A stretch of DNA of 64,000 nucleotides, taken from the NCBI GenBank assembly GCA_964019055.1, contig CAXHSA010000009.1:1-64000 (forward strand), given 5' to 3'. This stretch comes from Anthopleura xanthogrammica. Taxonomy: Eukaryota > Cnidaria > Anthozoa > Actiniaria > Actiniidae. The notes beneath the pieces are model-generated. The model did not search any database. It was not told the DNA's origin and was given only the letters and a program-made list of their open reading frames with translations. Positions 1-64,000 of the stretch are shown piece by piece. Numbering within the stretch: the first letter of the stretch is position 1; every line of letters begins with the position of its first letter. Position numbers and translations under genes: made by a program.

Positions 1-245
1 TTTTTTGGGCTAAAAAGCTTTTTTTCCCAGCAAAACAGTGTTTTGGACACCTAAAATGTGCTTTTCTCGTCCAAAACTTGCGTTTAGCAGTGAAAACGTC
101 GTGTTTTGAGCAAAAGAAAATTCTCAGCAAATTTCAAATTTTCTCAGCAAAAAACACCTTTTTTGACCAAAAAGCACCTTTACTCAGCCAAAACCGCATT
201 TTTTTTTCGCCAAAAAGTCGTGTTTTTATCTCAAGAGGTATTTTC
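1..245 (+). repeat. Partial monomer at the left edge
   Basis: The window opens at monomer position 86, inside the T6 run, and runs to the end of the unit. It carries T9 instead of T8 before CGCC, giving 245 bases for 244 consensus positions. The array clearly continues to the left. Confidence 0.95.
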
Positions 246-1563
246 ATGAGCAAAAAGTGGGGGTTTCAGCAAACAGGTCACGCCGTCAGCGAAAAACCTG
301 GTTTTGAGAGCCAAAATGGCCATTTTTCAGTTTTTTGAGCTAAAAAGGTTTTTTTCCCCAGCAAAACAGTGTTTTGGACACCTAAAATGTGCTTTTCTCG
401 TCCAAAAGTTGCGTTTAGCAGTGAAAACGTCGTGTTTTGAGCAAAAGAAAATTCTCAGCAAATTTCAAATTTTCTCAGCAAAAAACACCTTTTTTGACCA
501 TAAAGCACCTTTACTCAGCCAAAACCGCATTTTTTTTCGCCAAAAAGTCGTGTTTTTATCTCAAGAGGTATTTTCATGAGCAAAAAGTGGGGGTTTCAGC
601 AAACAGGTCACGCCGTCAGCGAAAAACCTGGTTTTGAGAGCCAAAATGGCCATTTTTCAGGTTTTTGGGCTAAAAAGCTTTTTTTCCCAGCAAAACAGTG
701 TTTTGGACACCTAAAATGTGCTTTTCTCGTCCAAAACTTGCGTTTAGCAGTGAAAACGTCGTGTTTTGAGCAAAAGAAAATTCTCAGCAAATTTCAAATT
801 TTCTCAGCAAAAAACACCTTTTTTGACCAAAAAGCACCTTTACTCAGCCAAAACCGCATTTTTTTTCGCCAAAAAGTCGTGTTTTTATCTCAAGAGGTAT
901 TTTCATGAGCAAAAAGTGGGGGTTTCAGCAAACAGGTCACGCCGTCAGCGAAAAACCTGGTTTTGAGAGCCAAAATGGCCATTTTTCAGTTTTTTGGGCT
1001 AAAAAGCTTTTTTTCCCCAGCAAAACAGTGTTTTGGACACCTAAAATGTGCTTTTCTCGTCCAAAACTTGCGTTTAGCAGTGAAAACGTCGTGTTTTGAG
1101 CAAAAGAAAATTCTCAGCAAATTTCAAATTTTCTCAGCAAAAAACACCTTTTTTGACCAAAAAGCACCTTTACTCAGCCAAAACCGCATTTTTTTTCGCC
1201 AAAAAGTCGTGTTTTTATCTCAAGAGGTATTTTCATGAGCAAAAAGTGGGGGTTTCAGCAAACAGGTCACGCCGTCAGCGAAAAACCTGGTTTTGAGAGC
1301 CAAAATGGCCATTTTTCAGTTTTTTGGGCTAAAAAGCTTTTTTTCCCAGCAAAACAGTGTTTTGGACACCTAAAATGTGCTTTTCTCGTCCAAAACTTGC
1401 GTTTAGCAGTGAAAACGTCGTGTTTTGAGCAAAAGAAAATTCTCAGCAAATTTCAAATTTTCTCAGCAAAAAACACCTTTTTTGACCAAAAAGCACCTTT
1501 ACTCAGCCAAAACCGCATTTTTTTTCGCCAAAAAGTCGTGTTTTTATCTCAAGAGGTATTTTC
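246..1563 (+). repeat. Left block with singular variants and two 330-bp units
   Basis: The copy at 246 is the most divergent in this part: G to A in GGGCT, AAAAAGG with an extra C in the C-run, AAAAGTTGCG instead of AAAACTTGCG, and CCATAAAG instead of CCAAAAAG. It is 330 bp. The copy at 576 has CAGGTTTTT for CAGTTTTTT. The copy at 905 has an extra C (T7C4) and is 330 bp. The copy at 1235 is consensus. Several of these changes are not seen elsewhere in the window. Confidence 0.9.
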
Positions 1564-2221
1564 ATGAGCAAAAAGTGGGGGTTTCAGCAAACAGGTCACG
1601 CCGTCAGCGAAAAACCTGGTTTTGAGAGCCAAAATGGCCATTTTTCAGTTTTTTGGGCTAAAAAGCTTTTTTTCCCAGCAAAACAGTGTTTTGGACACCT
1701 AAAATGTGCTTTTCTCGTCCAAAACTTGCGTTTAGCAGTGAAAACGTCGTGTTTTGAGCAAAAGAAAATTCTCAGCAAATTTCAAATTTTCTCAGCAAAA
1801 AACACCTTTTTTGACCAAAAAGCACCTTTACTCAGCCAAAACCGCATTTTTTTTCGCCAAAAAGTCGTGTTTTTATCTCAAGAGGTATTTTCATGAGCAA
1901 AAAGTGGGGGTTTCAGCAAACAGGTCACGCCGTCAGCGAAAAACCTGGTTTTGAGAGCCAAAATGGCCATTTTTCAGTTTTTTGGGCTAAAAAGCTTTTT
2001 TTCCCAGCAAAACAGTGTTTTGGACACCTAAAATGTGCTTTTCTCGTCCAAAACTTGCGTTTAGCAGTGAAAACGTCGTGTTTTGAGCAAAAGAAAATTC
2101 TCAGCAAATTTCAAATTTTCTCAGCAAAAAACACCTTTTTTGACCAAAAAGCACCTTTACTCAGCCAAAACCTTATTTTTTTTCGCCAAAAAGTCGTGTT
2201 TTTATCTCAAGAGGTATTTTC

Positions 2222-5200
2222 ATGAGCAAAAAGTGGGGGTTTCAGCAAACAGGTCACGCCGTCAGCGAAAAACCTGGTTTTGAGAGCCAAAATGGCCATT
2301 TTTCAGTTTTTTGGGCTAAAAGGCTTTTTTCTTCAGCAAAACAGTGTTTTGGACACCTAAAATGTGCTTTTCTCGTCCAAAACTTGCGTTTAGCAGTGAA
2401 AACGTCGTGTTTTGAGCAAAAGAAAATTCTCAGCAAATTTCAAATTTTCTCAGCAAAAAACACCTTTTTTGACCAAAAAGCACCTTTGCTCAGCCAAAAC
2501 CGCATTTTTTTTCGCCAAAAAGTCGTGTTTTTATCTCAAGAGGTATTTTCATGAGCAAAAAGTGGGGGTTTCAGCAAACAGGTCACGCCGTCAGCGAAAA
2601 ACCTGGTTTTGAGAGCCAAAATGGCCATTTTTCAGTTTTTTGGGCTAAAAAGCTTTTTTTCCCAGCAAAACAGTGTTTTGGACACCTAAAATGTGCTTTT
2701 CTCGTCCAAAACTTGCGTTTAGCAGTGAAAACGTCGTGTTTTGAGCAAAAGAAAATTCTCAGCAAATTTCAAATTTTCTCAGCAAAAAACACCTTTTTTG
2801 ACCAAAAAGCACCTTTACTCAGCCAAAACCGCATTTTTTTTCGCCAAAAAGTCGTGTTTTTATCTCAAGAGGTATTTTCATGAGCAAAAAGTGGGGGTTT
2901 CAGCAAACAGGTCACGCCGTCAGCGAAAAACCTGGTTTTGAGAGCCAAAATGGCCATTTTTCAGTTTTTTGGGCTAAAAGGCTTTTTTCCCCAGCAAAAC
3001 AGTGTTTTGGACACCTAAAATGTGCTTTTCTCGTCCAAAACTTGCGTTTAGCAGTGAAAACGTCGTGTTTTGAGCAAAAGAAAATTCTCAGCAAATTTCA
3101 AATTTTCTCAGCAAAAAACACCTTTTTTGACCAAAAAGCACCTTTACTCAGCCAAAACCGCATTTTTTTTCGCCAAAAAGTCGTGTTTTTATCTCAAGAG
3201 GTATTTTCATGAGCAAAAAGTGGGGGTTTCAGCAAACAGGTCACGCCGTCAGCGAAAAACCTGGTTTTGAGAGCCAAAATGGCCATTTTTCAGTTTTTTG
3301 GGCTAAAAGGCTTTTTTCCCCACCAAAACAGTGTTTTGGACACCTAAAATGTGCTTTTCTCGTCCAAAACTTGCGTTTAGCAGTGAAAACGTCGTGTTTT
3401 GAGCAAAAGAAAATTCTCAGCAAATTTCAAATTTTCTCAGCAAAAAACACCTTTTTTGACCAAAAAGCACCTTTGCTCAGCCAAAACCGCATTTTTTTTC
3501 GCCAAAAAGTCGTGTTTTTATCTCAAGAGGTATTTTCATGAGCAAAAAGTGGGGGTTTCAGCAAACAGGTCACGCCGTCAGCGAAAAACCTGGTTTTGAG
3601 AGCCAAAATGGCCATTTTTCAGTTTTTTGGGCTAAAAAGCTTTTTTTCCCAGCAAAACAGTGTTTTGGACACCTAAAATGTGCTTTTCTCGTCCAAAACT
3701 TGCGTTTAGCAGTGAAAACGTCGTGTTTTGAGCAAAAGAAAATTCTCAGCAAATTTCAAATTTTCTCAGCAAAAAACACCTTTTTTGACCAAAAAGCACC
3801 TTTACTCAGCCAAAACCGCATTTTTTTTCGCCAAAAAGTCGTGTTTTTATCTCAAGAGGTATTTTCATGAGCAAAAAGTGGGGGTTTCAGCAAACAGGTC
3901 ACGCCGTCAGCGAAAAACCTGGTTTTGAGAGCCAAAATGGCCATTTTTCAGTTTTTTGGGCTAAAAAGCTTTTTTTCCCAGCAAAACAGTGTTTTGGACA
4001 CCTAAAATGTGCTTTTCTAGTCCAAAACTTGCGTTTAGCAGTGAAAACGTCGTGTTTTGAGCAAAAGAAAATTCTCAGCAAATTTCAAATTTTCTCAGCA
4101 AAAAACACCTTTTTTGACCAAAAAGCACCTTTACTCAGCCAAAACCGCATTTTTTTTCGCCAAAAAGTCGTGTTTTTATCTCAAGAGGTATTTTCATGAG
4201 CAAAAAGTGGGGGTTTCAGCAAACAGGTCACGCCGTCAGCGAAAAACCTGGTTTTGAGAGCCAAAATGGCCATTTTTCAGTTTTTTGGGCTAAAAAGCTT
4301 TTTTTCCCAGCAAAACAGTGTTTTGGACACCTAAAATGTGCTTTTCTCGTCCAAAACTTGCGTTTAGCAGTGAAAACGTCGTGTTTTGAGCAAAAGAAAA
4401 TTCTCAGCAAATTTCAAATTTTCTCAGCAAAAAACACCTTTTTTGACCAAAAAGCACCTTTACTCAGCCAAAACCGCATTTTTTTTCGCCAAAAAGTCGT
4501 GTTTTTATCTCAAGAGGTATTTTCATGAGCAAAAAGTGGGGGTTTCAGCAAACAGGTCACGCCGTCAGCGAAAAACCTGGTTTTGAGAGCCAAAATGGCC
4601 ATTTTTCAGTTTTTTGGGCTAAAAAGCTTTTTTTCCCAGCAAAACAGTGTTTTGGACACCTAAAATGTGCTTTTCTCGTCCAAAACTTGCGTTTAGCAGT
4701 GAAAACGTCGTGTTTTGAGCAAAAGAAAATTCTCAGCAAATTTCAAATTTTCTCAGCAAAAAACACCTTTTTTGACCAAAAAGCACCTTTACTCAGCCAA
4801 AACCGCATTTTTTTTCACCAAAAAGTCGTGTTTTTATCTCAAGAGGTATTTTCATGAGCAAAAAGTGGGGGTTTCAGCAAACAGGTCACGCCGTCAGCGA
4901 AAAACCTGGTTTTGAGAGCCAAAATGGCCATTTTTCAGTTTTTTGGGCTAAAAAGCTTTTTTTCCCAGCAAAACAGTGTTTTGGACACCTAAAATGTGCT
5001 TTTCTCGTCCAAAACTTGCGTTTAGCAGTGAAAACGTCGTGTTTTGAGCAAAAGAAAATTCTCAGCAAATTTCAAATTTTCTCAGCAAAAAACACCTTTT
5101 TTGACCAAAAAGCACCTTTACTCAGCCAAAACCGCATTTTTTTTCGCCAAAAAGTCGTGTTTTTATCTCAAGAGGTATTTTCATGAGCAAAAAGTGGGGG

Positions 5201-8200
5201 TTTCAGCAAACAGGTCACGCCGTCAGCGAAAAACCTGGTTTTGAGAGCCAAAATGGCCATTTTTCAGTTTTTTGGGCTAAAAGGCTTTTTTCCCCAGCAA
5301 AACAGTGTTTTGGACACCTAAAATGTGCTTTTCTCGTCCAAAACTTGCGTTTAGCAGTGAAAACGTCGTGTTTTGAGCAAAAGAAAATTCTCAGCAAATT
5401 TCAAATTTTCTCAGCAAAAAACACCTTTTTTGACCAAAAAGCACCTTTACTCAGCCAAAACCGCATTTTTTTTCGCCAAAAAGTCGTGTTTTTATCTCAA
5501 GAGGTATTTTCATGAGCAAAAAGTGGGGGTTTCAGCAAACAGGTCACGCCGTCAGCGAAAAACCTGGTTTTGAGAGCCAAAATGGCCATTTTTCAGTTTT
5601 TTGGGCTAAAAGGCTTTTTTCCCCAGCAAAACAGTGTTTTGGACACCTAAAATGTGCTTTTCTCGTCCAAAACTTGCGTTTAGCAGTGAAAACGTCGTGT
5701 TTTGAGCAAAAGAAAATTCTCAGCAAATTTCAAATTTTCTCAGCAAAAAACACCTTTTTTGACCAAAAAGCACCTTTGCTCAGCCAAAACCGCATTTTTT
5801 TTCGCCAAAAAGTCGTGTTTTTATCTCAAGAGGTATTTTCATGAGCAAAAAGTGGGGGTTTCAGCAAACAGGTCACGCCGTCAGCGAAAAACCTGGTTTT
5901 GAGAGCCAAAATGGCCATTTTTCAGTTTTTTGGGCTAAAAAGCTTTTTTTCCCAGCAAAACAGTGTTTTGGACACCTAAAATGTGCTTTTCTCGTCCAAA
6001 ACTTGCGTTTAGCAGTGAAAACGTCGTGTTTTGAGCAAAAGAAAATTCTCAGCAAATTTCAAATTTTCTCAGCAAAAAACACCTTTTTTGACCAAAAAGC
6101 ACCTTTACTCAGCCAAAACCGCATTTTTTTTCGCCAAAAAGTCGTGTTTTTATCTCAAGAGGTATTTTCATGAGCAAAAAGTGGGGGTTTCAGCAAACAG
6201 GTCACGCCGTCAGCGAAAAACCTGGTTTTGAGAGCCAAAATGGCCATTTTTCAGTTTTTTGGGCTAAAAAGCTTTTTTTCCCAGCAAAACAGTGTTTTGG
6301 ACACCTAAAATGTGCTTTTCTCGTCCAAAACTTGCGTTTAGCAGTGAAAACGTCGTGTTTTGAGCAAAAGAAAATTCTCAGCAAATTTCAAATTTTCTCA
6401 GCAAAAAACACCTTTTTTGACCAAAAAGCACCTTTACTCAGCCAAAACCGCATTTTTTTTCGCCAAAAAGTCGTGTTTTTATCTCAAGAGGTATTTTCAT
6501 GAGCAAAAAGTGGGGGTTTCAGCAAACAGGTCACGCCGTCAGCGAAAAACCTGGTTTTGAGAGCCAAAATGGCCATTTTTCAGTTTTTTGGGCTAAAAAG
6601 CTTTTTTTCCCAGCAAAACAGTGTTTTGGACACCTAAAATGTGCTTTTCTCGTCCAAAACTTGCGTTTAGCAGTGAAAACGTCGTGTTTTGAGCAAAAGA
6701 AAATTCTCAGCAAATTTCAAATTTTCTCAGCAAAAAACACCTTTTTTGACCAAAAAGCACCTTTACTCAGCCAAAACCGCATTTTTTTTCGCCAAAAAGT
6801 CGTGTTTTTATCTCAAGAGGTATTTTCATGAGCAAAAAGTGGGGGTTTCAGCAAACAGGTCACGCCGTCAGCGAAAAACCTGGTTTTGAGAGCCAAAATG
6901 GCCATTTTTCAGTTTTTTGGGCTAAAAGGCTTTTTTCCCCAGCAAAACAGTGTTTTGGACACCTAAAATGTGCTTTTCTCGTCCAAAACTTGCGTTTAGC
7001 AGTGAAAACGTCGTGTTTTGAGCAAAAGAAAATTCTCAGCAAATTTCAAATTTTCTCAGCAAAAAACACCTTTTTTGACCAAAAAGCACCTTTACTCAGC
7101 CAAAACCGCATTTTTTTTCGCCAAAAAGTCGTGTTTTTATCTCAAGAGGTATTTTCATGAGCAAAAAGTGGGGGTTTCAGCAAACAGGTCACGCCGTCAG
7201 CGAAAAACCTGGTTTTGAGAGCCAAAATGGCCATTTTTCAGTTTTTTGGGCTAAAAGGCTTTTTTCCCCAGCAAAACAGTGTTTTGGACACCTAAAATGT
7301 GCTTTTCTCGTCCAAAACTTGCGTTTAGCAGTGAAAACGTCGTGTTTTGAGCAAAAGAAAATTCTCAGCAAATTTCAAATTTTCTCAGCAAAAAACACCT
7401 TTTTTGACCAAAAAGCACCTTTGCTCAGCCAAAACCGCATTTTTTTTCGCCAAAAAGTCGTGTTTTTATCTCAAGAGGTATTTTCATGAGCAAAAAGTGG
7501 GGGTTTCAGCAAACAGGTCACGCCGTCAGCGAAAAACCTGGTTTTGAGAGCCAAAATGGCCATTTTTCAGTTTTTTGGGCTAAAAAGCTTTTTTTCCCAG
7601 CAAAACAGTGTTTTGGACACCTAAAATGTGCTTTTCTCGTCCAAAACTTGCGTTTAGCAGTGAAAACGTCGTGTTTTGAGCAAAAGAAAATTCTCAGCAA
7701 ATTTCAAATTTTCTCAGCAAAAAACACCTTTTTTGACCAAAAAGCACCTTTACTCAGCCAAAACCGCATTTTTTTTCGCCAAAAAGTCGTGTTTTTATCT
7801 CAAGAGGTATTTTCATGAGCAAAAAGTGGGGGTTTCAGCAAACAGGTCACGCCGTCAGCGAAAAACCTGGTTTTGAGAGCCAAAATGGCCATTTTTCAGT
7901 TTTTTGGGCTAAAAAGCTTTTTTTCCCAGCAAAACAGTGTTTTGGACACCTAAAATGTGCTTTTCTCGTCCAAAACTTGCGTTTAGCAGTGAAAACGTCG
8001 TGTTTTGAGCAAAAGAAAATTCTCAGCAAATTTCAAATTTTCTCAGCAAAAAACACCTTTTTTGACCAAAAAGCACCTTTACTCAGCCAAAACCGCATTT
8101 TTTTTCGCCAAAAAGTCGTGTTTTTATCTCAAGAGGTATTTTCATGAGCAAAAAGTGGGGGTTTCAGCAAACAGGTCACGCCGTCAGCGAAAAACCTGGT

Positions 8201-8801
8201 TTTGAGAGCCAAAATGGCCATTTTTCAGTTTTTTGGGCTAAAAAGCTTTTTTTCCCAGCAAAACAGTGTTTTGGACACCTAAAATGTGCTTTTCTCGTCC
8301 AAAACTTGCGTTTAGCAGTGAAAACGTCGTGTTTTGAGCAAAAGAAAATTCTCAGCAAATTTCAAATTTTCTCAGCAAAAAACACCTTTTTTGACCAAAA
8401 AGCACCTTTACTCAGCCAAAACCGCATTTTTTTTCACCAAAAAGTCGTGTTTTTATCTCAAGAGGTATTTTCATGAGCAAAAAGTGGGGGTTTCAGCAAA
8501 CAGGTCACGCCGTCAGCGAAAAACCTGGTTTTGAGAGCCAAAATGGCCATTTTTCAGTTTTTTGGGCTAAAAAGCTTTTTTTCCCAGCAAAACAGTGTTT
8601 TGGACACCTAAAATGTGCTTTTCTCGTCCAAAACTTGCGTTTAGCAGTGAAAACGTCGTGTTTTGAGCAAAAGAAAATTCTCAGCAAATTTCAAATTTTC
8701 TCAGCAAAAAACACCTTTTTTGACCAAAAAGCACCTTTACTCAGCCAAAACCGCATTTTTTTTCGCCAAAAAGTCGTGTTTTTATCTCAAGAGGTATTTT
8801 C
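2222..8801 (+). repeat. AAAAGGC / TTTGCTC variant family
   Basis: Monomers starting at 2222, 2880, 3209, 5183, 5512, 6828 and 7157 have AAAAGGC followed by T6 instead of AAAAAGC followed by T7. Those at 2222, 3209, 5512 and 7157 also have TTTGCTC for TTTACTC. The pair 'AAAAGGC copy then AAAAGGC + TTTGCTC copy' occurs three times, at 2880, 5183 and 6828. The copies at 4525 and 8144 share CACC for CGCC after the T8 run. Shared private changes in repeated order show amplification of multi-monomer blocks. Confidence 0.9.
5183..8472 (+). repeat. Tandem 5-monomer higher-order repeat (1645 bp, two copies)
   Basis: Block 5183-6827 and block 6828-8472 have the same order: an AAAAGGC copy, an AAAAGGC copy with TTTGCTC, then three consensus-like copies. 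They differ in that the fifth copy of the second block, at 8144, has CACC after the T8 run. An earlier related block starts at 2880 but has one more monomer between its TTTGCTC copy (3209) and its CACC copy (4525), consistent with unequal exchange out of register by one monomer. Confidence 0.75.
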
Positions 8802-11800
8802 ATGAGCAAAAAGTGGGGGTTTCAGCAAACAGGTCACGCCGTCAGCGAAAAACCTGGTTTTGAGAGCCAAAATGGCCATTTTTCAGTTTTTTGGGCTAAA
8901 AAGCTTTTTTTCCCAGCAAAACAGTGTTTTGGACACCTAAAATGTGCTTTTCTCGTCCAAAACTTGCGTTTAGCAGTGAAAACGTCGTGTTTTGAGCAAA
9001 AGAAAATTCTCAGCAAATTTCAAATTTTCTCAGCAAAAAACACCTTTTTTGACCAAAAAGCACCTTTACTCAGCCAAAACCGCATTTTTTTTCGCCAAAA
9101 AGTCGTGTTTTTATCTCAAGAGGTATTTTCATGAGCAAAAAGTGGGGGTTTCAGCAAACAGGTCACGCCGTCAGCGAAAAACCTGGTTTTGAGAGCCAAA
9201 ATGGCCATTTTTCAGTTTTTTGGGCTAAAAAGCTTTTTTTCCCAGCAAAACAGTGTTTTGGACACCTAAAATGTGCTTTTCTCGTCCAAAACTTGCGTTT
9301 AGCAGTGAAAACGTCGTGTTTTGAGCAAAAGAAAATTCTCAGCAAATTTCAAATTTTCTCAGCAAAAAACACCTTTTTTGACCAAAAAGCACCTTTACTC
9401 AGCCAAAACCGCATTTTTTTTCGCCAAAAAGTCGTGTTTTTATCTCAAGAGGTATTTTCATGAGCAAAAAGTGGGGGTTTCAGCAAACAGGTCACGCCGT
9501 CAGCGAAAAACCTGGTTTTGAGAGCCAAAATGGCCATTTTTCAGTTTTTTGGGCTAAAAAGCTTTTTTTCCCAGCAAAACAGTGTTTTGGACACCTAAAA
9601 TGTGCTTTTCTCGTCCAAAACTTGCGTTTAGCAGTGAAAACGTCGTGTTTTGAGCAAAAGAAAATTCTCAGCAAATTTCAAATTTTCTCAGCAAAAAACA
9701 CCTTTTTTGACCAAAAAGCACCTTTACTCAGCCAAAACCGCATTTTTTTTCGCCAAAAAGTCGTGTTTTTATCTCAAGAGGTATTTTCATGAGCAAAAAG
9801 TGGGGGTTTCAGCAAACAGGTCACGCCGTCAGCGAAAAACCTGGTTTTGAGAGCCAAAATGGCCATTTTTCAGTTTTTTGGGCTAAAAAGCTTTTTTTCC
9901 CAGCAAAACAGTGTTTTGGACACCTAAAATGTGCTTTGCTCGTCCAAAACTTGCGTTTAGCAGTGAAAACGTCGTGTTTTGAGCAAAAGAAAATTCTCAG
10001 CAAATTTCAAATTTTCTCAGCAAAAAACACCTTTTTTGACCAAAAAGCACCTTTACTCAGCCAAAACCGCATTTTTTTTCGCCAAAAAGTCGTGTTTTTA
10101 TCTCAAGAGGTATTTTCATGAGCAAAAAGTGGGGGTTTCAGCAAACAGGTCACGCCGTCAGCGAAAAACCTGGTTTTGAGAGCCAAAATGGCCATTTTTC
10201 AGTTTTTTGGGCTAACAAGCTTTTTTCCCCAGCAAAACAGTGTTTTGGACACCTAAAATGTGCTTTTCTCGTCCAAAACTTGCGTTTAGCAGTGAAAACG
10301 TCGTGTTTTGAGCAAAAGAAAATTCTCAGCAAATTTCAAATTTTCTCAGCAAAAAACACCTTTTTTGACCAAAAAGCACCTTTACTCAGCCAAAACCGCA
10401 TTTTTTTTCGCCAAAAAGTCGTGTTTTTATCTCAAGAGGTATTTTCATGAGCAAAAAGTGGGGGTTTCAGCAAACAGGTCACGCCGTCAGCGAAAAACCT
10501 GGTTTTGAGAGCCAAAATGGCCATTTTTCAGTTTTTTGGGCTAAAAAGCTTTTTTCCCCAGCAAAACAGTGTTTTGGACACCTAAAATGTGCTTTTCTCG
10601 TCCAAAACTTGCGTTTAGCAGTGAAAACGTCGTGTTTTGAGCAAAAGAAAATTCTCAGCAAATTTCAAATTTTCTCAGCAAAAAACACCTTTTTTGACCA
10701 AAAAGCACCTTTACTCAGCCAAAACCGCATTTTTTTTCGCCAAAAAGTCGTGTTTTTATCTCAAGAGGTATTTTCATGAGCAAAAAGTGGGGGTTTCAGC
10801 AAACAGGTCACGCCGTCAGCGAAAAACCTGGTTTTGAGAGCCAAAATGGCCATTTTTCAGTTTTTTGGGCTAAAAAGCTTTTTTTCCCAGCAAAACAGTG
10901 TTTTGGACACCTAAAATGTGCTTTTCTCGTCCAAAACTTGCGTTTAGCAGTGAAAACGTCATGTTTTGAGCAAAAGAAAGTTCTCAGCAAATTTCAAATT
11001 TTCTCAGCAAAAAACACCTTTTTTGACCAAAAAGCACCTTTACTCAGCCAAAACCGCATTTTTTTTCGCCAAAAAGTCGTGTTTTTATCTCAAGAGGTAT
11101 TTTCATGAGCAAAAAGTGGGGGTTTCAGCAAACAGGTCACGCCGTCAGCGAAAAACCTGGTTTTGAGAGCCAAAATGGCCATTTTTCAGTTTTTTGGGCT
11201 AAAAAGCTTTTTTTCCCAGCAAAACGGTGTTTTGGACACCTAAAATGTGCTTTTCTCGTCCAAAACTTGCGTTTAGCAGTGAAAACGTCGTGTTTTGAGC
11301 AAAAGAAAATTCTCAGCAAATTTCAAATTTTCTCAGCAAAAAACACCTTTTTTGACCAAAAAGCACCTTTACTCAGCCAAAACCGCATTTTTTTTCGCCA
11401 AAAAGTCGTGTTTTTATCTCAAGAGGTATTTTCATGAGCAAAAAGTGGGGGTTTCAGCAAACAGGTCACGCCGTCAGCGAAAAACCTGGTTTTGAGAGCC
11501 AAAATGGCCATTTTTCAGTTTTTTGGGCTAAAAAGCTTTTTTCCCCAGCAAAACAGTGTTTTGGACACCTAAAATGTGCTTTTCTCGTCCAAAACTTGCG
11601 TTTAGCAGTGAAAACGTCGTGTTTTGAGCAAAAGAAAATTCTCAGCAAATTTCAAATTTTCTCAGCAAAAAACACCTTTTTTGACCAAAAAGCACCTTTA
11701 CTCAGCCAAAACCGCATTTTTTTTCGCCAAAAAGTCGTGTTTTTATCTCAAGAGGTATTTTCATGAGCAAAAAGTGGGGGTTTCAGCAAACAGGTCACGC

Positions 11801-14800: not shown

Positions 14801-15053
14801 ATTTTTCAGTTTTTTGGGCTAAAAAGCTTTTTTTCCCAGCAAAACAGTGTTTTGGACACCTAAAATGTGCTTTTCTCGTCCAAAACTTGCGTTTAGCAGT
14901 GAAAACGTCGTGTTTTGAGCAAAAGAAAATTCTCAGCAAATTTCAAATTTTCTCAGCAAAAAACACCTTTTTTGACCAAAAAGCACCTTTACTCAGCCAA
15001 AACCGCATTTTTTTTCGCCAAAAAGTCGTGTTTTTATCTCAAGAGGTATTTTC

Positions 15054-41795: not shown

Positions 41796-41810
41796 TCAGT
41801 TTTTTGGGCT

Positions 41811-49610: not shown

Positions 49611-49939
49611 ATGAGCAAAAAGTGGGGGTTTCAGCAAACAGGTCACGCCGTCAGCGAAAAACCTGGTTTTGAGAGCCAAAATGGCCATTTTTCAGTTTTT
49701 TGGGCTAAAAAGCTTTTTTTCCCAGCAAAACAGTGTTTTGGACACCTAAAATGTGCTTTTCTCGTCCAAAACTTGCGTTTAGCAGTGAAAACGTCGTGTT
49801 TTGAGCAAAAGAAAATTCTCAGCAAATTTCAAATTTTCTCAGCAAAAAACACCTTTTTTGACCAAAAAGCACCTTTACTCAGCCAAAACCGCATTTTTTT
49901 TCGCCAGAAAGTCGTGTTTTTATCTCAAGAGGTATTTTC

Positions 49940-53887: not shown

Positions 53888-56800
53888 ATGAGCAAAAAGT
53901 GGGGGTTTCAGCAAACAGGTCACGCCGTCAGCGAAAAACCTGGTTTTGAGAGCCAAAATGGCCATTTTTCAGTTTTTTGGGCTAAAAAGCTTTTTTTCCC
54001 AGCAAAACAGTGTTTTGGACACCTAAAATGTGCTTTTCTCGTCCAAAACTTGCGTTTAGCAGTGAAAACGTCGTGTTTTGAGCAAAAGAAAATTCTCAGC
54101 AAATTTCAAATTTTCTCAGCAAAAAAACACCTTTTTTGACCAAAAAGCACCTTTACTCAGCCAAAACCGCATTTTTTTTCGCCAAAAAGTCGTGTTTTTA
54201 TCTCAAGAGGTATTTTCATGAGCAAAAAGTGGGGGTTTCAGCAAACAGGTCACGCCGTCAGCGAAAAACCTGGTTTTGAGAGCCAAAATGGCCATTTTTC
54301 AGTTTTTTGGGCTAAAAAGCTTTTTTTCCCAGCAAAACAGTGTTTTGGACACCTAAAATGTGCTTTTCTCGTCCAAAACTTGCGTTTAGCAGTGAAAACG
54401 TCGTGTTTTGAGCAAAAGAAAATTCTCAGCAAATTTCAAATTTTCTCAGCAAAAAACACCTTTTTTGACCAAAAAGCACCTTTACTCAGCCAAAACCGCA
54501 TTTTTTTTCGCCAAAAAGTCGTGTTTTTATCTCAAGAGGTATTTTCATGAGCAAAAAGTGGGGGTTTCAGCAAACAGGTCACGCCGTCAGCGAAAAACCT
54601 GGTTTTGAGAGCCAAAATGGCCATTTTTCAGTTTTTTGGGCTAAAAAGCTTTTTTTCCCAGCAAAACAGTGTTTTGGACACCTAAAATGTGCTTTTCTCG
54701 TCCAAAACTTGCGTTTAGCAGTGAAAACGTCGTGTTTTGAGCAAAAGAAAATTCTCAGCAAATTTCAAATTTTCTCAGCAAAAAACACCTTTTTTGACCA
54801 AAAAGCACCTTTACTCAGCCAAAACCGCATTTTTTTTTCGCCAAAAAGTCGTGTTTTTATCTCAAGAGGTATTTTCATGAGCAAAAAGTGGGGGTTTCAG
54901 CAAACAGGTCACGCCGTCAGCGAAAAACCTGGTTTTGAGAGCCAAAATGGCCATTTTTCAGTTTTTTGGGCTAAAAAGCTTTTTTTCCCAGCAAAACAGT
55001 GTTTTGGACACCTAAAATGTGCTTTTCTCGTCCAAAACTTGCGTTTAGCAGTGAAAACGTCGTGTTTTGAGCAAAAGAAAATTCTCAGCAAATTTCAAAT
55101 TTTCTCAGCAAAAAACACCTTTTTTGACCAAAAAGCACCTTTACTCAGCCAAAACCGCATTTTTTTTTCGCCAAAAAGTCGTGTTTTTATCTCAAGAGGT
55201 ATTTTCATGAGCAAAAAGTGGGGGTTTCAGCAAACAGGTCACGCCGTCAGCGAAAAACCTGGTTTTGAGAGCCAAAATGGCCATTTTTCAGTTTTTTGGG
55301 CTAAAAAGCTTTTTTTCCCAGCAAAACAGTGTTTTGGACACCTAAAATGTGCTTTTCTCGTCCAAAACTTGCGTTTAGCAGTGAAAACGTCGTGTTTTGA
55401 GCAAAAGAAAATTCTCAGCAAATTTCAAATTTTCTCAGCAAAAAACACCTTTTTTGACCAAAAAGCACCTATACTCAGCCAAAACCGCATTTTTTTTTTG
55501 CCAAAAAGTCGTGTTTTTATCTCAAGAGGTATTTTCATGAGCAAAAAGTGGGGGTTTCAGCAAACAGGTCACGCCGTCAGCGAAAAACCTGGTTTTGAGA
55601 GCCAAAATGGCCATTTTTCAGTTTTTTGGGCTAAAAAGCTTTTTTTCCCAGCAAAACAGTGTTTTGGACACCTAAAATGTGCTTTTCTCGTCCAAAACTT
55701 GCGTTTAGCAGTGAAAACGTCGTGTTTTGAGCAAAAGAAAATTCTCAGCAAATTTCAAATTTTCTCAGCAAAAAACACCTTTTTTGACCAAAAAGCACCT
55801 TTACTCAGCCAAAACCGCATTTTTTTTTCGCCAAAAAGTCGTGTTTTTATCTCAAGAGGTATTTTCATGAGCAAAAAGTGGGGGTTTCAGCAAACAGGTC
55901 ACGCCGTCAGCGAAAAACCTGGTTTTGAGAGCCAAAATGGCCATTTTTCAGTTTTTTGGGCTAAAAAGCTTTTTTTCCCAGCAAAACAGTGTTTTGGACA
56001 CCTAAAATATGCTTTTCTCGTCCAAAACTTGCGTTTAGCAGTGAAAACGTCGTGTTTTGAGCAAAAGAAAATTCTCAGCAAATTTCAAATTTTCTCAGCA
56101 AAAAACACCTTTTTTGACCAAAAAGCACCTTTACTCAGCCAAAACCGCATTTTTTTTTTGCCAAAAAGTCGTGTTTTTATCTCAAGAGGTATTTTCATGA
56201 GCAAAAAGTGGGGGTTTCAGCAAACAGGTCACGCCGTCAGCGAAAAACCTGGTTTTGAGAGCCAAAATGGCCATTTTTCAGTTTTTTGGGCTAAAAAGCT
56301 TTTTTCCCAGCAAAACAGTGTTTTGGACACCTAAAATGTGCTTTTCTCGTCCAAAACTTGCGTTTAGCAGTGAAAACGTCGTGTTTTGAGCAAAAGAAAA
56401 TTCTCAGCAAATTTCAAATTTTCTCAGCAAAAAACACCTTTTTTGACCAAAAAGCACCTTTACTCAGCCAAAACCGCATTTTTTTTTCGCCAAAAAGTCG
56501 TGTTTTTATCTCAAGAGGTATTTTCATGAGCAAAAAGTGGGGGTTTCAGCAAACAGGTCACGCCGTCAGCGAAAAACCTGGTTTTGAGAGCCAAAATGGC
56601 CATTTTTCAGTTTTTTGGGCTAAAAAGCTTTTTTTCCCAGCAAAACAGTGTTTTGGACACCTAAAATGTGCTTTTCTCGTCCAAAACTTGCGTTTAGCAG
56701 TGAAAACGTCGTGTTTTGAGCAAAAGAAAATTCTCAGCAAATTTCAAATTTTCTCAGCAAAAAACACCTTTTTTGACCAAAAAGCACCTTTACTCAGCCA

Positions 56801-57514
56801 AAACCGCATTTTTTTTTCGCCAAAAAGTCGTGTTTTTATCTCAAGAGGTATTTTCATGAGCAAAAAGTGGGGGTTTCAGCAAACAGGTCACGCCGTCAGC
56901 GAAAAACCTGGTTTTGAGAGCCAAAATGGCCATTTTTCAGTTTTTTGGGCTAAAAAGCTTTTTTTCCCAGCAAAACAGTGTTTTGGACACCTAAAATGTG
57001 CTTTTCTCGTCCAAAACTTGCGTTTAGCAGTGAAAACGTCGTGTTTTGAGCAAAAGAAAATTCTCAGCAAATTTCAAATTTTCTCAGCAAAAAACACCTT
57101 TTTTGACCAAAAAGCACCTTTACTCAGCCAAAACCGCATTTTTTTTCGCCAAAAAGTCGTGTTTTTATCTCAAGAGGTATTTTCATGAGCAAAAAGTGGG
57201 GGTTTCAGCAAACAGGTCACGCCGTCAGCGAAAAACCTGGTTTTGAGAGCCAAAATGGCCATTTTTCAGTTTTTTTGGGCTAAAAAGCTTTTTTTCCCAG
57301 CAAAACAGTGTTTTGGACACCTAAAATGTGCTTTTCTCGTCCAAAACTTGCGTTTAGCAGTGAAAACGTCGTGTTTTGAGCAAAAGAAAATTCTCAGCAA
57401 ATTTCAAATTTTCTCAGCAAAAAACACCTTTTTTGACCAAAAAGCACCTTTACTCAGCCAAAACCGCATTTTTTTTCGCCAAAAAGTCGTGTTTTTATCT
57501 CAAGAGGTATTTTC
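53888..57514 (+). repeat. Run of 330-bp units
   Basis: 53888 has A7 for A6 before CACC (330 bp). 54547, 54877, 55207, 55537 and 55867 are five consecutive 330-bp units through T9-CGCC or T10-GCC. 56197 has a lost T before CCC and a gained T in the T-run (329 bp net). 56526 is 330 bp by T9, and 57185 is 330 bp by a T7 run before GGGCT. Point markers are CCTATACTC in 55207 and AAAATATGC in 55867. Because 330 is divisible by three, one frame stays open from 54547 to 56334 (595 codons), which is an arithmetic effect and not a sign of a gene. Confidence 0.9.
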
Positions 57515-59160
57515 ATGAGCAAAAAGTGGGGGTTTCAGCAAACAGGTCACGCCGTCAGCGAAAAACCTGGTTTTGAGAGCCAAAATGGCCATTTTTCAGT
57601 TTTTTGGGCTAAAAAGCTTTTTTTCCCAGCAAAACAGTGTTTTGGACACCTAAAATGTGCTTTTCTCGTCCAAAACTTGCGTTTAGCAGTGAAAACGTCG
57701 TGTTTTGAGCAAAAGAAAATTCTCAGCAAATTTCAAATTTTCTCAGCAAAAAACACCTTTTTTGACCAAAAAGCACCTTTACTCAGCCAAAACCGCATTT
57801 TTTTTCGCCAAAAAGTCGTGTTTTTATCTCAAGAGGTATTTTCATGAGCAAAAAGTGGGGGTTTCAGCAAACAGGTCACGCCGTCAGCGAAAAACCTGGT
57901 TTTGAGAGCCAAAATGGCCATTTTTCAGTTTTTTGGGCTAAAAAGCTTTTTTTCCCAGCAAAACAGTGTTTTGGACACCTAAAATGTGCTTTTCTCGTCC
58001 AAAACTTGCGTTTAGCAGTGAAAACGTCGTGTTTTGAGCAAAAGAAAATTCTCAGCAAATTTCAAATTTTCTCAGCAAAAAACACCTTTTTTGACCAAAA
58101 AGCACCTTTACTCAGCCAAAACCGCATTTTTTTTCGCCAAAAAGTCGTGTTTTTATCTCAAGAGGTATTTTCATGAGCAAAAAGTGGGGGTTTCAGAAAA
58201 CAGGTCACGCCGTCAGCGAAAAACCTGGTTTTGAGAGCCAAAATGGCCATTTTTCAGTTTTTTGGGCTAAAAAGCTTTTTTTCCCAGCAAAACAGTGTTT
58301 TGGACACCTAAAATGTGCTTTTCTCGTCCAAAACTTGCGTTTAGCAGTGAAAACGTCGTGTTTTGAGCAAAAGAAAATTCTCAGCAAATTTCAAATTTTC
58401 TCAGCAAAAAACACCTTTTTTGACCAAAAAGCACCTTTACTCAGCCAAAACCGCATTTTTTTTCGCCAAAAAGTCGTGTTTTTATCTCAAGAGGTATTTT
58501 CATGAGCAAAAAGTGGGGGTTTCAGCAAACAGGTCACGCCGTCAGCGAAAAACCTGGTTTTGAGAGCCAAAATGGCCATTTTTCAGTTTTTTGGGCTAAA
58601 AAGCTTTTTTTCCCAGCAAAACAGTGTTTTGGACACCTAAAATGTGCTTTTCTCGTCCAAAACTTGCGTTTAGCAGTGAAAACGTCGTGTTTTGAGCAAA
58701 AGAAAATTCTCAGCAAATTTCAAATTTTCTCAGCAAAAAACACCTTTTTTCACCAAAAAGCACCTTTACTCAGCCAAAACCGCATTTTTTTTCGCCAAAA
58801 AGTCGTGTTTTTATCTCAAGAGGTATTTTCATGAGCAAAAAGTGGGGGTTTCAGCAAACAGGTCACGCCGTCAGCGAAAAACCTGGTTTTGAGAGCCAAA
58901 ATGGCCATTTTTCAGTTTTTTTGGGCTAAAAAGCTTTTTTTCCCAGCAAAACAGTGTTTTGGACACCTAAAATGTGCTTTTCTCGTCCAAAACTTGCGTT
59001 TAGCAGTGAAAACGTCGTGTTTTGAGCAAAAGAAAATTCTCAGCAAATTTCAAATTTTCTCAGCAAAAAACACCTTTTTTGACCAAAAAGCACCTTTACT
59101 CAGCCAAAACCGCATTTTTTTTCGCCAAAAAGTCGTGTTTTTATCTCAAGAGGTATTTTC

Positions 59161-60476
59161 ATGAGCAAAAAGTGGGGGTTTCAGCAAACAGGTCACGCCG
59201 TCAGCGAAAAACCTGGTTTTGAGAGCCAAAATGGCCATTTTTCAGTTTTTTGGGCTAAAAAGCTTTTTTTCCCAGCAAAACAGTGTTTTGGACACCTAAA
59301 ATGTGCTTTTCTCGTCCAAAACTTGCGTTTAGCAGTGAAAACGTCGTGTTTTGAGCAAAAGAAAATTCTCAGCAAATTTCCAATTTTCTCAGCAAAAAAC
59401 ACCTTTTTTGACCAAAAAGCACCTTTACTCAGCCAAAACCGCATTTTTTTTCGCCAAAAAGTCGTGTTTTTATCTCAAGAGGTATTTTCATGAGCAAAAA
59501 GTGGGGGTTTCAGAAAACAGGTCACGCCGTCAGCGAAAAACCTGGTTTTGAGAGCCAAAATGGCCATTTTTCAGTTTTTTGGGCTAAAAAGCTTTTTTTC
59601 CCAGCAAAACAGTGTTTTGGACACCTAAAATGTGCTTTTCTCGTCCAAAACTTGCGTTTAGCAGTGAAAACGTCGTGTTTTGAGCAAAAGAAAATTCTCA
59701 GCAAATTTCAAATTTTCTCAGCAAAAAACACCTTTTTTGACCAAAAAGCACCTTTACTCAGCCAAAACCGCATTTTTTTTCGCCAAAAAGTCGTGTTTTT
59801 ATCTCAAGAGGTATTTTCATGAGCAAAAAGTGGGGGTTTCAGCAAACAGGTCACGCCGTCAGCGAAAAACCTGGTTTTGAGAGCCAAAATGGCCATTTTT
59901 CAGTTTTTTGGGCTAAAAAGCTTTTTTTCCCAGCAAAACAGTGTTTTGGACACCTAAAATGTGCTTTTCTCGTCCAAAACTTGCGTTTAGCAGTGAAAAC
60001 GTCGTGTTTTGAGCAAAAGAAAATTCTCAGCAAATTTCCAATTTTCTCAGCAAAAAACACCTTTTTTGACCAAAAAGCACCTTTACTCAGCCAAAACCGC
60101 ATTTTTTTTCGCCAAAAAGTCGTGTTTTTATCTCAAGAGGTATTTTCATGAGCAAAAAGTGGGGGTTTCAGAAAACAGGTCACGCCGTCAGCGAAAAACC
60201 TGGTTTTGAGAGCCAAAATGGCCATTTTTCAGTTTTTTGGGCTAAAAAGCTTTTTTTCCCAGCAAAACAGTGTTTTGGACACCTAAAATGTGCTTTTCTC
60301 GTCCAAAACTTGCGTTTAGCAGTGAAAACGTCGTGTTTTGAGCAAAAGAAAATTCTCAGCAAATTTCAAATTTTCTCAGCAAAAAACACCTTTTTTGACC
60401 AAAAAGCACCTTTACTCAGCCAAAACCGCATTTTTTTTCGCCAAAAAGTCGTGTTTTTATCTCAAGAGGTATTTTC
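59161..60476 (+). repeat. Dimer repeated twice: TTTCCAATT copy then CAGAAAAC copy
   Basis: Copies at 59161 and 59819 have TTTCCAATTTT, and the copies after them (59490 and 60148) have TTTCAGAAAAC. The same ordered pair occurs at 33155/33484, about 26 kb to the left. The period of this higher-order repeat is 658 bp. Single TTTCAGAAAAC copies also occur at 34142, 39410, 58173 and 62124. Confidence 0.85.
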
Positions 60477-60805
60477 ATGAGCAAAAAGTGGGGGTTTCAG
60501 CAAACAGGTCACGCCGTCAGCGAAAAACCTGGTTTTGAGAGCCAAAATGGCCATTTTTCAGTTTTTTGGGCTAAAAAGCTTTTTTTCCCAGCAAAACAGT
60601 GTTTTGGACACCTAAAATGTGCTTTTCTCGTCCAAAACTTGCGTTTAGCAGTGAAAACGTCGTGTTTTGAGCAAAAGAAAATTCTCAGCAAATTTCAAAT
60701 TTTCTCAGCAAAAAACACCTTTTTTGACCAAAAAGCACCTTTACTCAGCCAAAACCGCATTTTTTTTCGCCAAAAAGTCGTGTTTTTATCTCAAGAGGTA
60801 TTTTC

Positions 60806-63441
60806 ATGAGCAAAAAGTGGGGGTTTCAGCAAACAGGTCACGCCGTCAGCGAAAAACCTGGTTTTGAGAGCCAAAATGGCCATTTTTCAGTTTTTTGGGC
60901 TAAAAAGCTTTTTTTCCCAGCAAAACAGTGTTTTGGACACCTAAAATGTGCTTTTCTCGTCCAAAACTTGCGTTTAGCAGTGAAAACGTCGTGTTTTGAG
61001 CAAAAGAAAATTCTCAGCAAATTTCAAATTTTCTCAGCAAAAAACACCTTTTTTGACCAAAAAGCACCTTTACTCAGCCAAAACCGCATTTTTTTTTTTC
61101 CCAAAAAGTCGTGTTTTTATCTCAAGAGGTATTTTCATGAGCAAAAAGTGGGGGTTTCAGCAAACCGGTCACGCCGTCAGCGAAAAACCTGGTTTTGAGA
61201 GCCAAAATGGCCATTTTTCAGTTTTTTGGGCTAAAAAGCTTTTTTTCCCAGCAAAACAGTGTTTTGGACACCTAAAATGTGCTTTTCTCGTCCAAAACTT
61301 GCGTTTAGCAGTGAAAACGTCGTGTTTTGAGCAAAAGAAAATTCTCAGCAAATTTCAAATTTTCTCAGCAAAAAACACCTTTTTTGACCAAAAAGCACCT
61401 TTACTCAGCCAAAACCGCATTTTTTTTCGCCAAAACGTCGTGTTTTTATCTCAAGAGGTATTTTCATGAGCAAAAAGTGGGGGTTTCAGCAAACAGGTCA
61501 CGCCGTCAGCGAAAAACCTGGTTTTGAGAGCCAAAATGGCCATTTTTCAGTTTTTTGGGCTAAAAAGCTTTTTTTCCCAGCAAAACAGTGTTTTGGACAC
61601 CTAAAATGTGCTTTTCTCGTCCAAAACTTGCGTTTAGCAGTGAAAACGTCGTGTTTTGAGCAAAAGAAAATTCTCAGCAAATTTCAAATTTTCTCAGCAA
61701 AAAACACCTTTTTTGACCAAAAAGCACCTTTACTCAGCCAAAACCGCATTTTTTTTCGCCAAAAAGTCGTGTTTTTATCTCAAGAGGTATTTTCATGAGC
61801 AAAAAGTGGGGGTTTCAGCAAACAGGTCACGCCGTCAGCGAAAAACCTGGTTTTGAGAGCCAAAATGGCCATTTTTCAGTTTTTTGGGCTAAAAAGCTTT
61901 TTTTCCCAGCAAAACAGTGTTTTGGACACCTAAAATGTGCTTTTCTCGTCCAAAACTTGCGTTTAGCAGTGAAAACGTCGTGTTTTGAGCAAAAGAAAAT
62001 TCTCAGCAAATTTCAAATTTTCTCAGCAAAAAACACCTTTTTTGACCAAAAAGCACCTTTACTCAGCCAAAACCGCATTTTTTTTCGCCAAAAAGTCGTG
62101 TTTTTATCTCAAGAGGTATTTTCATGAGCAAAAAGTGGGGGTTTCAGAAAACAGGTCACGCCGTCAGCGAAAAACCTGGTTTTGAGAGCCAAAATGGCCA
62201 TTTTTCAGTTTTTTGGGCTAAAAAGCTTTTTTTCCCAGCAAAACAGTGTTTTGGACACCTAAAATGTGCTTTTCTCGTCCAAAACTTGCGTTTAGCAGTG
62301 AAAACGTCGTGTTTTGAGCAAAAGAAAATTCTCAGCAAATTTCAAATTTTCTCAGCAAAAAACACCTTTTTTGACCAAAAAGCACCTTTACTCAGCCAAA
62401 ACCGCATTTTTTTTCGCCAAAAAGTCGTGTTTTTATCTCAAGAGGTATTTTCATGAGCAAAAAGTGGGGGTTTCAGCAAACAGGTCACGCCGTCAGCGAA
62501 AAACCTGGTTTTGAGAGCCAAAATGGCCATTTTTCAGTTTTTTGGGCTAAAAAGCTTTTTTTCCCAGCAAAAACAGTGTTTTGGACACCTAAAATGTGCT
62601 TTTCTCGTCCAAAACTTGCGTTTAGCAGTGAAAACGTCGTGTTTTGAGCAAAAGAAAATTCTCAGCAAATTTCAAATTTTCTCAGCAAAAAACACCTTTT
62701 TTGACCAAAAAGCACCTTTACTCAGCCAAAACCGCATTTTTTTTCGCCAAAAAGTCGTGTTTTTATCTCAAGAGGTATTTTCATGAGCAAAAAGTGGGGG
62801 TTTCAGCAAACAGGTCACGCCGTCAGCGAAAAACCTGGTTTTGAGAGCCAAAATGGCCATTTTTCAGTTTTTTGGGCTAAAAAGCTTTTTTTCCCAGCAA
62901 AACAGTGTTTTGGACACCTAAAATGTGCTTTTCTCGTCCAAAACTTGCGTTTAGCAGTGAAAACGTCGTGTTTTGAGCAAAAGAAAATTCTCAGCAAATT
63001 TCAAATTTTCTCAGCAAAAAACACCTTTTTTGACCAAAAAGCACCTTTACTCAGCCAAAACCGCATTTTTTTTTTCCCAAAAAGTCGTGTTTTTATCTCA
63101 AGAGGTATTTTCATGAGCAAAAAGTGGGGGTTTCAGCAAACCGGTCACGCCGTCAGCGAAAAACCTGGTTTTGAGAGCCAAAATGGCCATTTTTCAGTTT
63201 TTTGGGCTAAAAAGCTTTTTTTCCCAGCAAAACAGTGTTTTGGACACCTAAAATGTGCTTTTCTCGTCCAAAACTTGCGTTTAGCAGTGAAAACGTCGTG
63301 TTTTGAGCAAAAGAAAATTCTCAGCAAATTTCAAATTTTCTCAGCAAAAAACACCTTTTTTGACCAAAAAGCACCTTTACTCAGCCAAAACCGCATTTTT
63401 TTTCGCCAAAACGTCGTGTTTTTATCTCAAGAGGTATTTTC
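60806..63441 (+). repeat. Two related dimers with T-run CCC, CCGG and AAAACGTCG markers
   Basis: Copies at 60806 (T11 then CCC, 331 bp) and 62783 (T10 then CCC, 330 bp) are each followed by a copy (61137, 63113) with AAACCGGTC at its start and CCAAAACGTCG instead of CCAAAAAGTCG at its end. The two dimers are separated by four other monomers, including 62124 (CAGAAAAC) and 62453 (A5 for A4 after CCCAGC, 330 bp). They differ by one T, consistent with duplication followed by slippage. Confidence 0.85.
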
Positions 63442-63770
63442 ATGAGCAAAAAGTGGGGGTTTCAGCAAACAGGTCACGCCGTCAGCGAAAAACCTGGTTT
63501 TGAGAGCCAAAATGGCCATTTTTCAGTTTTTTGGGCTAAAAAGCTTTTTTTCCCAGCAAAACAGTGTTTTGGACACCTAAAATGTGCTTTTCTCGTCCAA
63601 AACTTGCGTTTAGCAGTGAAAACGTCGTGTTTTGAGCAAAAGAAAATTCTCAGCAAATTTCAAATTTTCTCAGCAAAAAACACCTTTTTTGACCAAAAAG
63701 CACCTTTACTCAGCCAAAACCGCATTTTTTTTCGCCAAAAAGTCGTGTTTTTATCTCAAGAGGTATTTTC

Positions 63771-64000
63771 ATGAGCAAAAAGTGGGGGTTTCAGCAAACA
63801 GGTCACGCCGTCAGCGAAAAACCTGGTTTTGAGAGCCAAAATGGCCATTTTTCAGTTTTTTGGGCTAAAAAGCTTTTTTTCCCAGCAAAACAGTGTTTTG
63901 GACACCTAAAATGTGCTTTTCTCGTCCAAAACTTGCGTTTAGCAGTGAAAACGTCGTGTTTTGAGCAAAAGAAAATTCTCAGCAAATTTCAAATTTTCTC
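63771..64000 (+). repeat. Partial monomer at the right edge
   Basis: The window ends at monomer position 230, in TTTTCTC, with consensus sequence up to that point. The array continues to the right. Confidence 0.95.

Follow-up and report, generated by a model that had tools for sequence, protein, structure and literature searches.

The window analysed here, the first 64 kb of a 225,874-bp contig (C28), is filled throughout by a 329-bp repeat in head-to-tail array, which makes it satellite DNA, and the monomer carries runs of A and of T phased near the helical repeat, as in intrinsically curved satellites. We propose that it is a candidate centromeric or pericentromeric satellite, descended from a 20-bp ancestor, predicted to be curved and possibly positioning nucleosomes rotationally. 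For this account as a whole we regard the chances as evenly balanced; its core, a mid-chromosome satellite of ~20-bp ancestry, appears to us very probable.

The satellite array and its genomic distribution

When monomers were cut at a 16-base anchor (194 anchors, 193 spacings), 167 spacings measured 329 bp, 20 measured 330 bp, five 331 bp and one 327 bp, which bears out the 329-bp tandem array described in the first-pass annotation. The 167 monomers of 329 bp have a mean identity of 99.6% to their consensus, 96 exact copies of which, in the chosen rotation, lie within the window, and the contig is satellite at every stretch read, up to 203 kb. The features discussed below are as follows, coordinates of the in-register block being derived from the exact copies that start at 1320 and 1649.

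1..64000, + strand: tandem array of the 329-bp satellite
1320..1648, + strand: a copy identical to the consensus monomer, with a further exact copy at 1649
1464..1757, + strand: in-register block of 294 bp with a period of 10.04 bp (consensus 145-438, which extends past the monomer end into the copy that follows)
1425..1459, + strand: slip segment in which register is lost and runs lie 3-5 bp apart (consensus positions 106-140)
1546..1558, + strand: 13-bp spacer lacking any A/T run, where a tract is missing
1592..1609, + strand: 18-bp GC-rich spacer lacking any A/T run, starting three bases before the 16-base anchor

There was no Rfam match to positions 1-6000 of the window and no plasmid match. 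Open reading frames of up to 110-111 aa recur about once per monomer (positions 1-2000) and are treated as chance because 329 is not divisible by 3. The 12 best self-matches included no shift near 164 bp, and so gave no sign that half a monomer had been duplicated.

Across the host genome (289.8 Mb in 125 contigs) the 329-bp family amounts to about 12.15 Mb and is present on at least 12 megabase-scale contigs. On the nine contigs of known extent the arrays form interior clusters, lying 18-63% of the way along, and its sequence and distribution make the family a candidate for a satellite of centromeres or pericentromeres. A 148-bp satellite found near it on two contigs (C7 and C8) may be the real centromere repeat. 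Among the matches listed from the cnidarian and sea-anemone satellite literature, judged by titles and abstract openings, there was no account of this satellite.

Helical phasing, register and predicted curvature

The phasing of A/T runs near one helical turn, first proposed from the letters, withstood comparison with dinucleotide-shuffled monomers, of which 0/1000 reached the peak at 9.5-11 bp, and A runs and T runs are in phase with each other, as had also been proposed. The accompanying period of 10.28 bp must be given up. It is the quotient 329/32, that is, the mean tract spacing, and in the AAA/TTT spectrum the corresponding harmonic 32 is weak, with a power of 5.1 that 3.2% of 2000 shuffles reach (harmonic 31, 6.8), whereas harmonic 33 (9.97 bp) is strong and supplies the observed maximum of 24.0, the largest of the 2000 shuffle maxima being 18.6. 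The best period is thus 9.97-10.06 bp, the upper value being that obtained outside the slip (monomer positions 140-434), and the alignment of 33 tract centres is likewise higher at 10.0 bp (R = 0.57) than at 10.5 (0.41) or 10.28 (0.29). The tract centres listed by the first-pass annotation do correspond to the sequence, with 30 of 31 within 2 bp of a real run of three or more A or T, but only after a fitted shift of -86, and because this shift was optimised part of the agreement comes free.

About 294 bp of the monomer share a single register at 10.04 bp, with a coherence of 0.711 that 1/1000 tract-order shuffles reached. Register breaks near monomer positions 106-140, so that phasing does not extend, as had been stated, across the whole array; the slip occurs once per monomer and is estimated at 0.3-0.7 turn, a period of 10.06-10.18 bp leaving a remainder of 0.70-0.32 turn per monomer.

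Curvature was predicted with three wedge models, using 300 shuffles for each and an ideal phased A6 sequence as control. In all three models the mean bend (per 21 bp) and the mean compaction (over 120 bp) were both above 300/300 shuffles, and the bend amounted to 62-67% of that of phased A6 (35.5 versus 53.3, 32.0 versus 48.2 and 29.2 versus 47.1 degrees). Compaction over 120 bp lay far under the control (1.35-1.41 versus 2.44-3.03), and median torsion was negative in five of six settings. The models therefore predict strong local curvature, mostly left-handed. Over three monomers, in contrast, shuffles attained the contour/end value in 2, 60 and 51 cases out of 300 in the respective models.

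The first-pass annotation had gone further and expected cumulative curvature over some 6,200 turns. If curvature summed in phase at 10.28 bp from one end of the array to the other, the result would be one giant superhelix, an arrangement with which the mean tract spacing of 329/32 and the strong local curvature agree. With register slipping in every monomer, however, curvature cannot sum over 6,200 turns; harmonic 32 is weak and the contour/end value is matched by shuffles in two of three models (60 and 51/300), and we consider such a superhelix exceedingly improbable.

A 20-bp ancestral unit and the question of selection

A runs and T runs alternate along the monomer, and the unit underlying them is about 20 bp long. 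Trivial short shifts aside, the monomer matches itself best at a shift of 20, then at 40 and 60; a wrap-around fit of the 20-bp unit scores 115, the highest score among 25 run-shuffles being -183, and a 41-bp double unit fits likewise, with a score of 131. The run spacing of ~10.0 bp arises because each unit carries a T run and an A run separated by half its 20-bp length. Tract order is self-complementary, with weak dyad symmetry of the spacers (equalled by 41/500 shuffles). The T-to-A spacers are alike, their sequence being close to CTCAGC (1/500 shuffles), and the A-to-T spacers show no mutual likeness beyond that of shuffles (214/500).

Such a shared spacer sequence is what might be seen if the 20-bp unit were a putative binding site for a protein that recognises the minor groove or bends (AT-hook, HMG or CENP-B-like), with phasing aligning the bound molecules along a single face of the helix. 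The divergence of the units, which are 73% identical to the unit consensus, argues against this, and we think it improbable.

Perhaps the most serious alternative is that the phasing is an unselected fossil, in which an amplified 20-bp unit gave a 10-bp period that homogenisation has preserved without any function. Consistent with this, beyond the 20-bp ancestry itself, changes in the tracts match the mutational baseline (11/45 majority differences versus 37/122 singletons, p = 0.56), and so they do in a larger locus set, where 32/94 differences lie in tracts (p = 0.66). That set began with 29 loci, of which five without a full monomer were dropped; the 94 differences are not all fixed, because 13 of the other 24 loci rest on one or two monomers. 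Selection on the tracts had been suggested by a first count of 12/48 changes where 21 were expected, but this was not upheld with the mutational baseline and more loci, and no sign of selection on tracts was found once that baseline was used. Against the fossil reading, the 294-bp register exceeds that of shuffled tract order (1/1000), although this is also expected if descent from a 20-bp ancestor involved few net indels, and the tracts look depleted relative to rare variants at A/T sites (p = 0.04), an effect not seen with more loci. We regard an unselected fossil as a real possibility, somewhat short of probable.

Comparison with known repeats

The host carries TTAGGG arrays, and among named organisms the best matches to its proteins come from sea anemones and corals; it is probably a sea anemone. 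A galliform W satellite, first suggested by the architecture, was rejected on the host genome of 289.8 Mb in 125 contigs and on these protein matches. The bird W satellite sate-21, presumably the same as the classical XhoI/EcoRI W families, is nonetheless alike in design. As outlined in PMC9974502, sate-21 of the chicken W chromosome (TTTTCnnnnnGAAAAnnnnnn) has a 21-bp unit with conserved dyad symmetry. On this outline it shares with the 329-mer a short, diverged unit (21 versus ~20 bp) in which a T run and an A run lie ~10 bp apart, and an organisation of units into longer repeats within multi-megabase satellite DNA; it differs in its conserved dyad, that of the spacers in the 329-mer being weak (41/500 shuffles). 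The likeness is one of architecture, between birds and a cnidarian whose long unit is a homogeneous 329-mer. The chicken CNM repeat, in the same outline, has a 41-bp unit, higher-order repeats and dyad symmetry like that of sate-21, and has been linked by ChIP to CENP-A centromeres (PMC9974502). It resembles the 329-mer in its higher-order repeats, and the 41-bp double unit fits the monomer, a likeness by description; the centromere link of CNM comes from ChIP, whereas that of the 329-bp satellite is proposed from sequence. The 329-bp repeat has the alternating T and A runs, in units of ~20-21 bp that form longer repeats, by which sate-21 and CNM are described.

Insect pericentric satellites are described as curved through A-T tracts (PMC8122249), and share with the 329-mer predicted A/T-run curvature in a (peri)centromeric satellite; set against them by description, the 329-mer has runs phased over ~294 of its 329 bp. 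PATCs, which are scattered over 6-10% of the genome in C. elegans and, in PATC-rich introns, shield transgenes from germline silencing (PMC7725773), similarly have A and T runs near one helical turn apart. Because a nematode host is improbable and the repeat is a homogeneous satellite from another phylum, whereas PATCs are dispersed, the resemblance to them drawn in the first-pass annotation is a poor comparison, and the TTAGGG arrays and cnidarian protein matches led us to reject nematode PATC identity. A candidate repeat of columbine (Aquilegia) is also given as 329 bp (PMC4053949), a match of size that we take as coincidence because of the TTAGGG arrays and cnidarian genes of the host.

A tentative model for nucleosome positioning

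The sequence shows that a unit of about 20 bp, its T run and its A run half a unit apart, multiplied and diverged to give the 329-bp monomer, which was then amplified into the arrays seen on at least 12 megabase-scale contigs. For the role of the satellite our proposal is tentative. The phased runs and the GC-richer spacers between them may favour one rotational setting on the histone octamer; the ~294-bp block could accommodate two nucleosomes, successive pairs being separated by the ~35-bp slip segment, and the outcome of such pairing would be regular, compact chromatin. That phasing sets nucleosome rotation in the animal is, in our view, plausible but a little less than an even prospect.

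Two 147-bp windows lying 152-177 bp apart and both coherent at 10.2 bp were obtained in 0/150 block-order and 0/150 run-order shuffles; at a period of 10.5 bp, 61/150 block-order shuffles did as well. Coherence is also high between the two windows, with a third peak at 188 and one deep trough at 40, and sequence alone therefore does not mark two translational positions. In its most speculative form, the model would make the monomer a DNA-encoded dinucleosome ruler (294 bp being twice 147, in a 10.04-bp register, with the ~35-bp slip as linker), nucleosomes over megabases of the (peri)centromere being fixed in rotation and perhaps in translation, and the 20-bp T/A design having arisen independently in birds and cnidarians through centromeric or heterochromatic selection. 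We consider this extended form unlikely.

If nucleosomes do not follow the register, the satellite would be a clean case of a 20-bp ancestor yielding helical phasing without selection. If they do follow it, these arrays would provide a natural, megabase-scale test of sequence fixing nucleosome rotation at centromeres, and the likeness to sate-21 and CNM would suggest recurrence of the alternating T/A design.

Array, genomic distribution and neighbouring sequences

All 64,000 bases of the window form a single head-to-tail array of a 329-bp monomer, with 167 of 193 anchor spacings measuring 329 bp. The 167 monomers of this length average 99.6% ungapped identity to the consensus (range 68–100%) and 93 are identical to it; taken in another rotation, the consensus has 96 exact copies in the window. 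The window opens contig C28, a sequence of 225,874 bp that carries the satellite at every place read, up to 203 kb. At window positions 576–908, 1235–1567 and 1564–1896 there is a repeated 110-aa frame starting with ATG; it overlaps the next monomer, and we judge it to be a product of chance.

Across the assembly (289.8 Mb, 125 contigs), 36,930 matches to a 26-base anchor with at most two mismatches imply a satellite content of about 12.15 Mb, which is 4.2% of the total. Clusters are found on at least 12 megabase-scale contigs, and spot probes were positive at 7/7 places on C1 (7.45–8.70 Mb) and 7/13 on C4.

Clusters of the 329-bp satellite, by contig
C1: 7.39–9.01 of 29.3 Mb
C3: 3.34–4.97 of 18.2 Mb
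C4: 7.55–9.70 of 17.0 Mb
C5: 9.20–9.22 of 16.5 Mb
C7: 8.98–10.14 of 16.2 Mb
C8: about 8.12–8.36 of 14.8 Mb; sequence other than satellite was read at 8.32 and 8.35
C13: 4.08–4.18 of 11.1 Mb
C14: 4.45–4.79 of 10.8 Mb
C21: 5.81–5.91 of 10.0 Mb
C11: 6.17 Mb
C18: 3.57–3.65 Mb
C19: 5.33 Mb
Further present: C28, C30, C57, C82, C92, C100, C109, C110

At the edge of the C1 cluster the array switches strand at an inverted junction (L047:3771–3784, C1 about 7,395,770), and TTAGGG arrays were read at the start of the same contig. Another satellite, whose monomer measures 148 bp, adjoins the 329-bp family in stretches L029 and L030 (C8, 7.80 and 7.90 Mb) and at C7 8.52–9.02 Mb; it has 11,321 matches to its own 26-base anchor (at most two mismatches) and is a rival candidate for the centromere repeat. 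On either side of the C8 satellite cluster lie kilobase-scale microsatellites of ATAATG and CTATTT (L033, 8.10 Mb; L042, 8.60 Mb), and L044 (C8, 9.10 Mb) holds an array of a 22-bp satellite, TCCAAAATCATATTCTGGAGGA, whose spectrum peaks near 10.9 bp. Near the C8 array, a 795-aa open frame (L039:3–2390, 8.35 Mb) may belong to a mobile element. Among the 120 best of its 352 matches, identity is 68% to an Actinostola (sea anemone) protein, 58% to an Oculina (coral) protein and up to 99% to others, with one 48% match labelled as a gammaproteobacterial bin; the protein has many relatives, and the named ones among the matches listed are mainly from sea anemones and corals. At C8 7.5 Mb, a frame for a myosin light chain shares 79% identity with Nematostella vectensis, and another match reaches 98%. 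These matches point to a sea anemone (Actiniaria) as the host.

Period and register of the A/T tracts

Of the 31 tract centres proposed in the first-pass annotation, 30 fall no more than 2 bp from an actual run once a fitted shift is applied. The periodicity itself is confirmed: the AAA/TTT spectrum has its maximum near 10.0 bp, with a power of 23.9 that is equalled by 0/1000 dinucleotide shuffles. The period it gave, 10.28 bp, is wrong, as power is 5.1 at 329/32 = 10.28 bp versus 24.0 at 329/33 = 9.97 bp. The 9.5–11 bp band holds 32% of AAA/TTT power across the window's first 3 kb, compared with controls of 3.4–3.7% in the neighbouring 148-bp satellite, 2.8–3.3% in two satellite-free stretches and 12% in the 22-bp satellite (peak 10.9 bp).

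Locally, the best period ranges from 9.7 to 10.95 bp in 123-bp windows. Over monomer positions 140–434 (those above 329 running into the next copy), a span that leaves out the irregular segment of the monomer, it is 10.06 bp with a power of 34.9. Over the 294 bp of positions 145–438, coherence is 0.711 at 10.04 bp, equalled by 1/1000 tract-order shuffles. Phasing across the whole array had been claimed; long-range register is indeed present, but it is broken around positions 106–140, where some runs lie only 3–5 bp apart, and successive monomers are 0.70–0.32 turn out of register for periods of 10.06–10.18 bp. At two further sites a tract is missing (17.5 and 22 bp between neighbouring centres), with much smaller loss of register.

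Predicted curvature

Three wedge models, with ideal phased A6 as control, predict mean bends of 35.5, 32.0 and 29.2 degrees per 21 bp, equalled in any model by 0/300 shuffles, against 53.3, 48.2 and 47.1 degrees for the control. Mean 120-bp compaction is 1.35–1.41 (0/300 shuffles) versus 2.44–3.03 in the control, while its maximum is equalled by 6, 0 and 0 of 300 shuffles. Local curvature is a well-supported prediction of these models. The cumulative curvature envisaged over about 6,200 turns is not supported at the scale of the array; for three monomers, 2, 60 and 51 of 300 shuffles equal the contour-to-end ratio. The median chord torsion has a negative sign, meaning left-handed, in 5/6 model settings; with a helical repeat of 10.2 it is slight, and with one of 10.0 it is positive.

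Ancestry of the tracts and tests for selection

Runs of A and T alternate, with spacings of 10 bp from A to T, 11 bp from T to A and 20 bp from A to A. The monomer matches itself best at a shift of 20 (0.471), then 40 (0.407), 21 and 60 (0.389), 1–2 bp shifts aside, and wrap-around alignment divides it into 16.45 copies of TTTTCTCAGCAAAAAGCTGC, which are 73% identical to that unit, with 9 bases inserted and 9 deleted. This fit scores 115, whereas 25 run-shuffles started from two of the same seeds average -226 and reach -183 at best. Units of 41 and 21 bp score 131 and 111, so the ancestor may have been of another length. Among 590 monomers, two measure 309 bp and two 350 bp, a difference of roughly one unit in either direction. 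The T-to-A spacers are alike beyond shuffles (1/500 equal), and the A-to-T spacers show no such mutual likeness (214/500 equal). The order TTTTN6AAAAN6TTTTN6AAAA occurs 86,710 times genome-wide versus 36,558 in reverse; in the window the two counts are 351 and 1. On this reading of the sequence, the 10-bp phasing would be half of a ~20-bp ancestor, and could be its unselected leftover.

Selection to maintain the phasing was looked for in the differences between arrays and did not show. Of the majority differences, 11/45 fall in tracts; the proportion is 37/122 for singletons within arrays (p = 0.56, or 0.12 at A/T sites alone) and 86/265 for rare variants (p = 0.38, or 0.04 at A/T sites alone). 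With more loci, 32/94 differences lie in tracts, giving p = 0.66 against singletons, 1.0 and 0.56 at A/T sites against singletons and rare variants, and 0.06 against uniform expectation. The 24 loci that yielded a monomer keep 31–33 of 33 tracts, as expected because the arrays are close relatives.

Proposed nucleosome positioning and relation to known satellites

Two 147-bp windows separated by 152–177 bp each show coherence at 10.2 bp, which 0/150 block-order and 0/150 run-order shuffles match; at 10.0, 10.3 and 10.5 bp, 1, 2 and 61 of 150 block-order shuffles do so. Coherence is also high between the windows, save for one deep trough, and translational positions are therefore not marked. Shrader and Crothers reportedly built designs that favour a single rotational setting on the histone octamer, and the likeness here lies in A/T runs about 10 bp apart with GC-richer spacers. 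Because of this resemblance we favour, as an inference, rotational positioning by the monomer: the phased runs would set the rotation of nucleosomes, each monomer would have room for two, and the segment at 106–140 would serve as linker. An unselected leftover of the ancestral unit follows close behind as an explanation.

On the chicken W chromosome, sate-21 (TTTTCnnnnnGAAAAnnnnnn) accounts for 19.7% of the sequence and builds higher-order repeats that diverge from one another; CNM, a repeat of 41 bp, goes with acrocentric centromeres that were mapped by means of CENP-A (PMC9974502). The architecture agrees with that of the 329-bp satellite, a likeness of layout. For insect pericentric satellites, curvature from A–T tracts is known, with no role established for it (PMC8122249). 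We file the 329-bp satellite of Anthopleura xanthogrammica as joining repeats of this already known kind, with a register unusually long for them.
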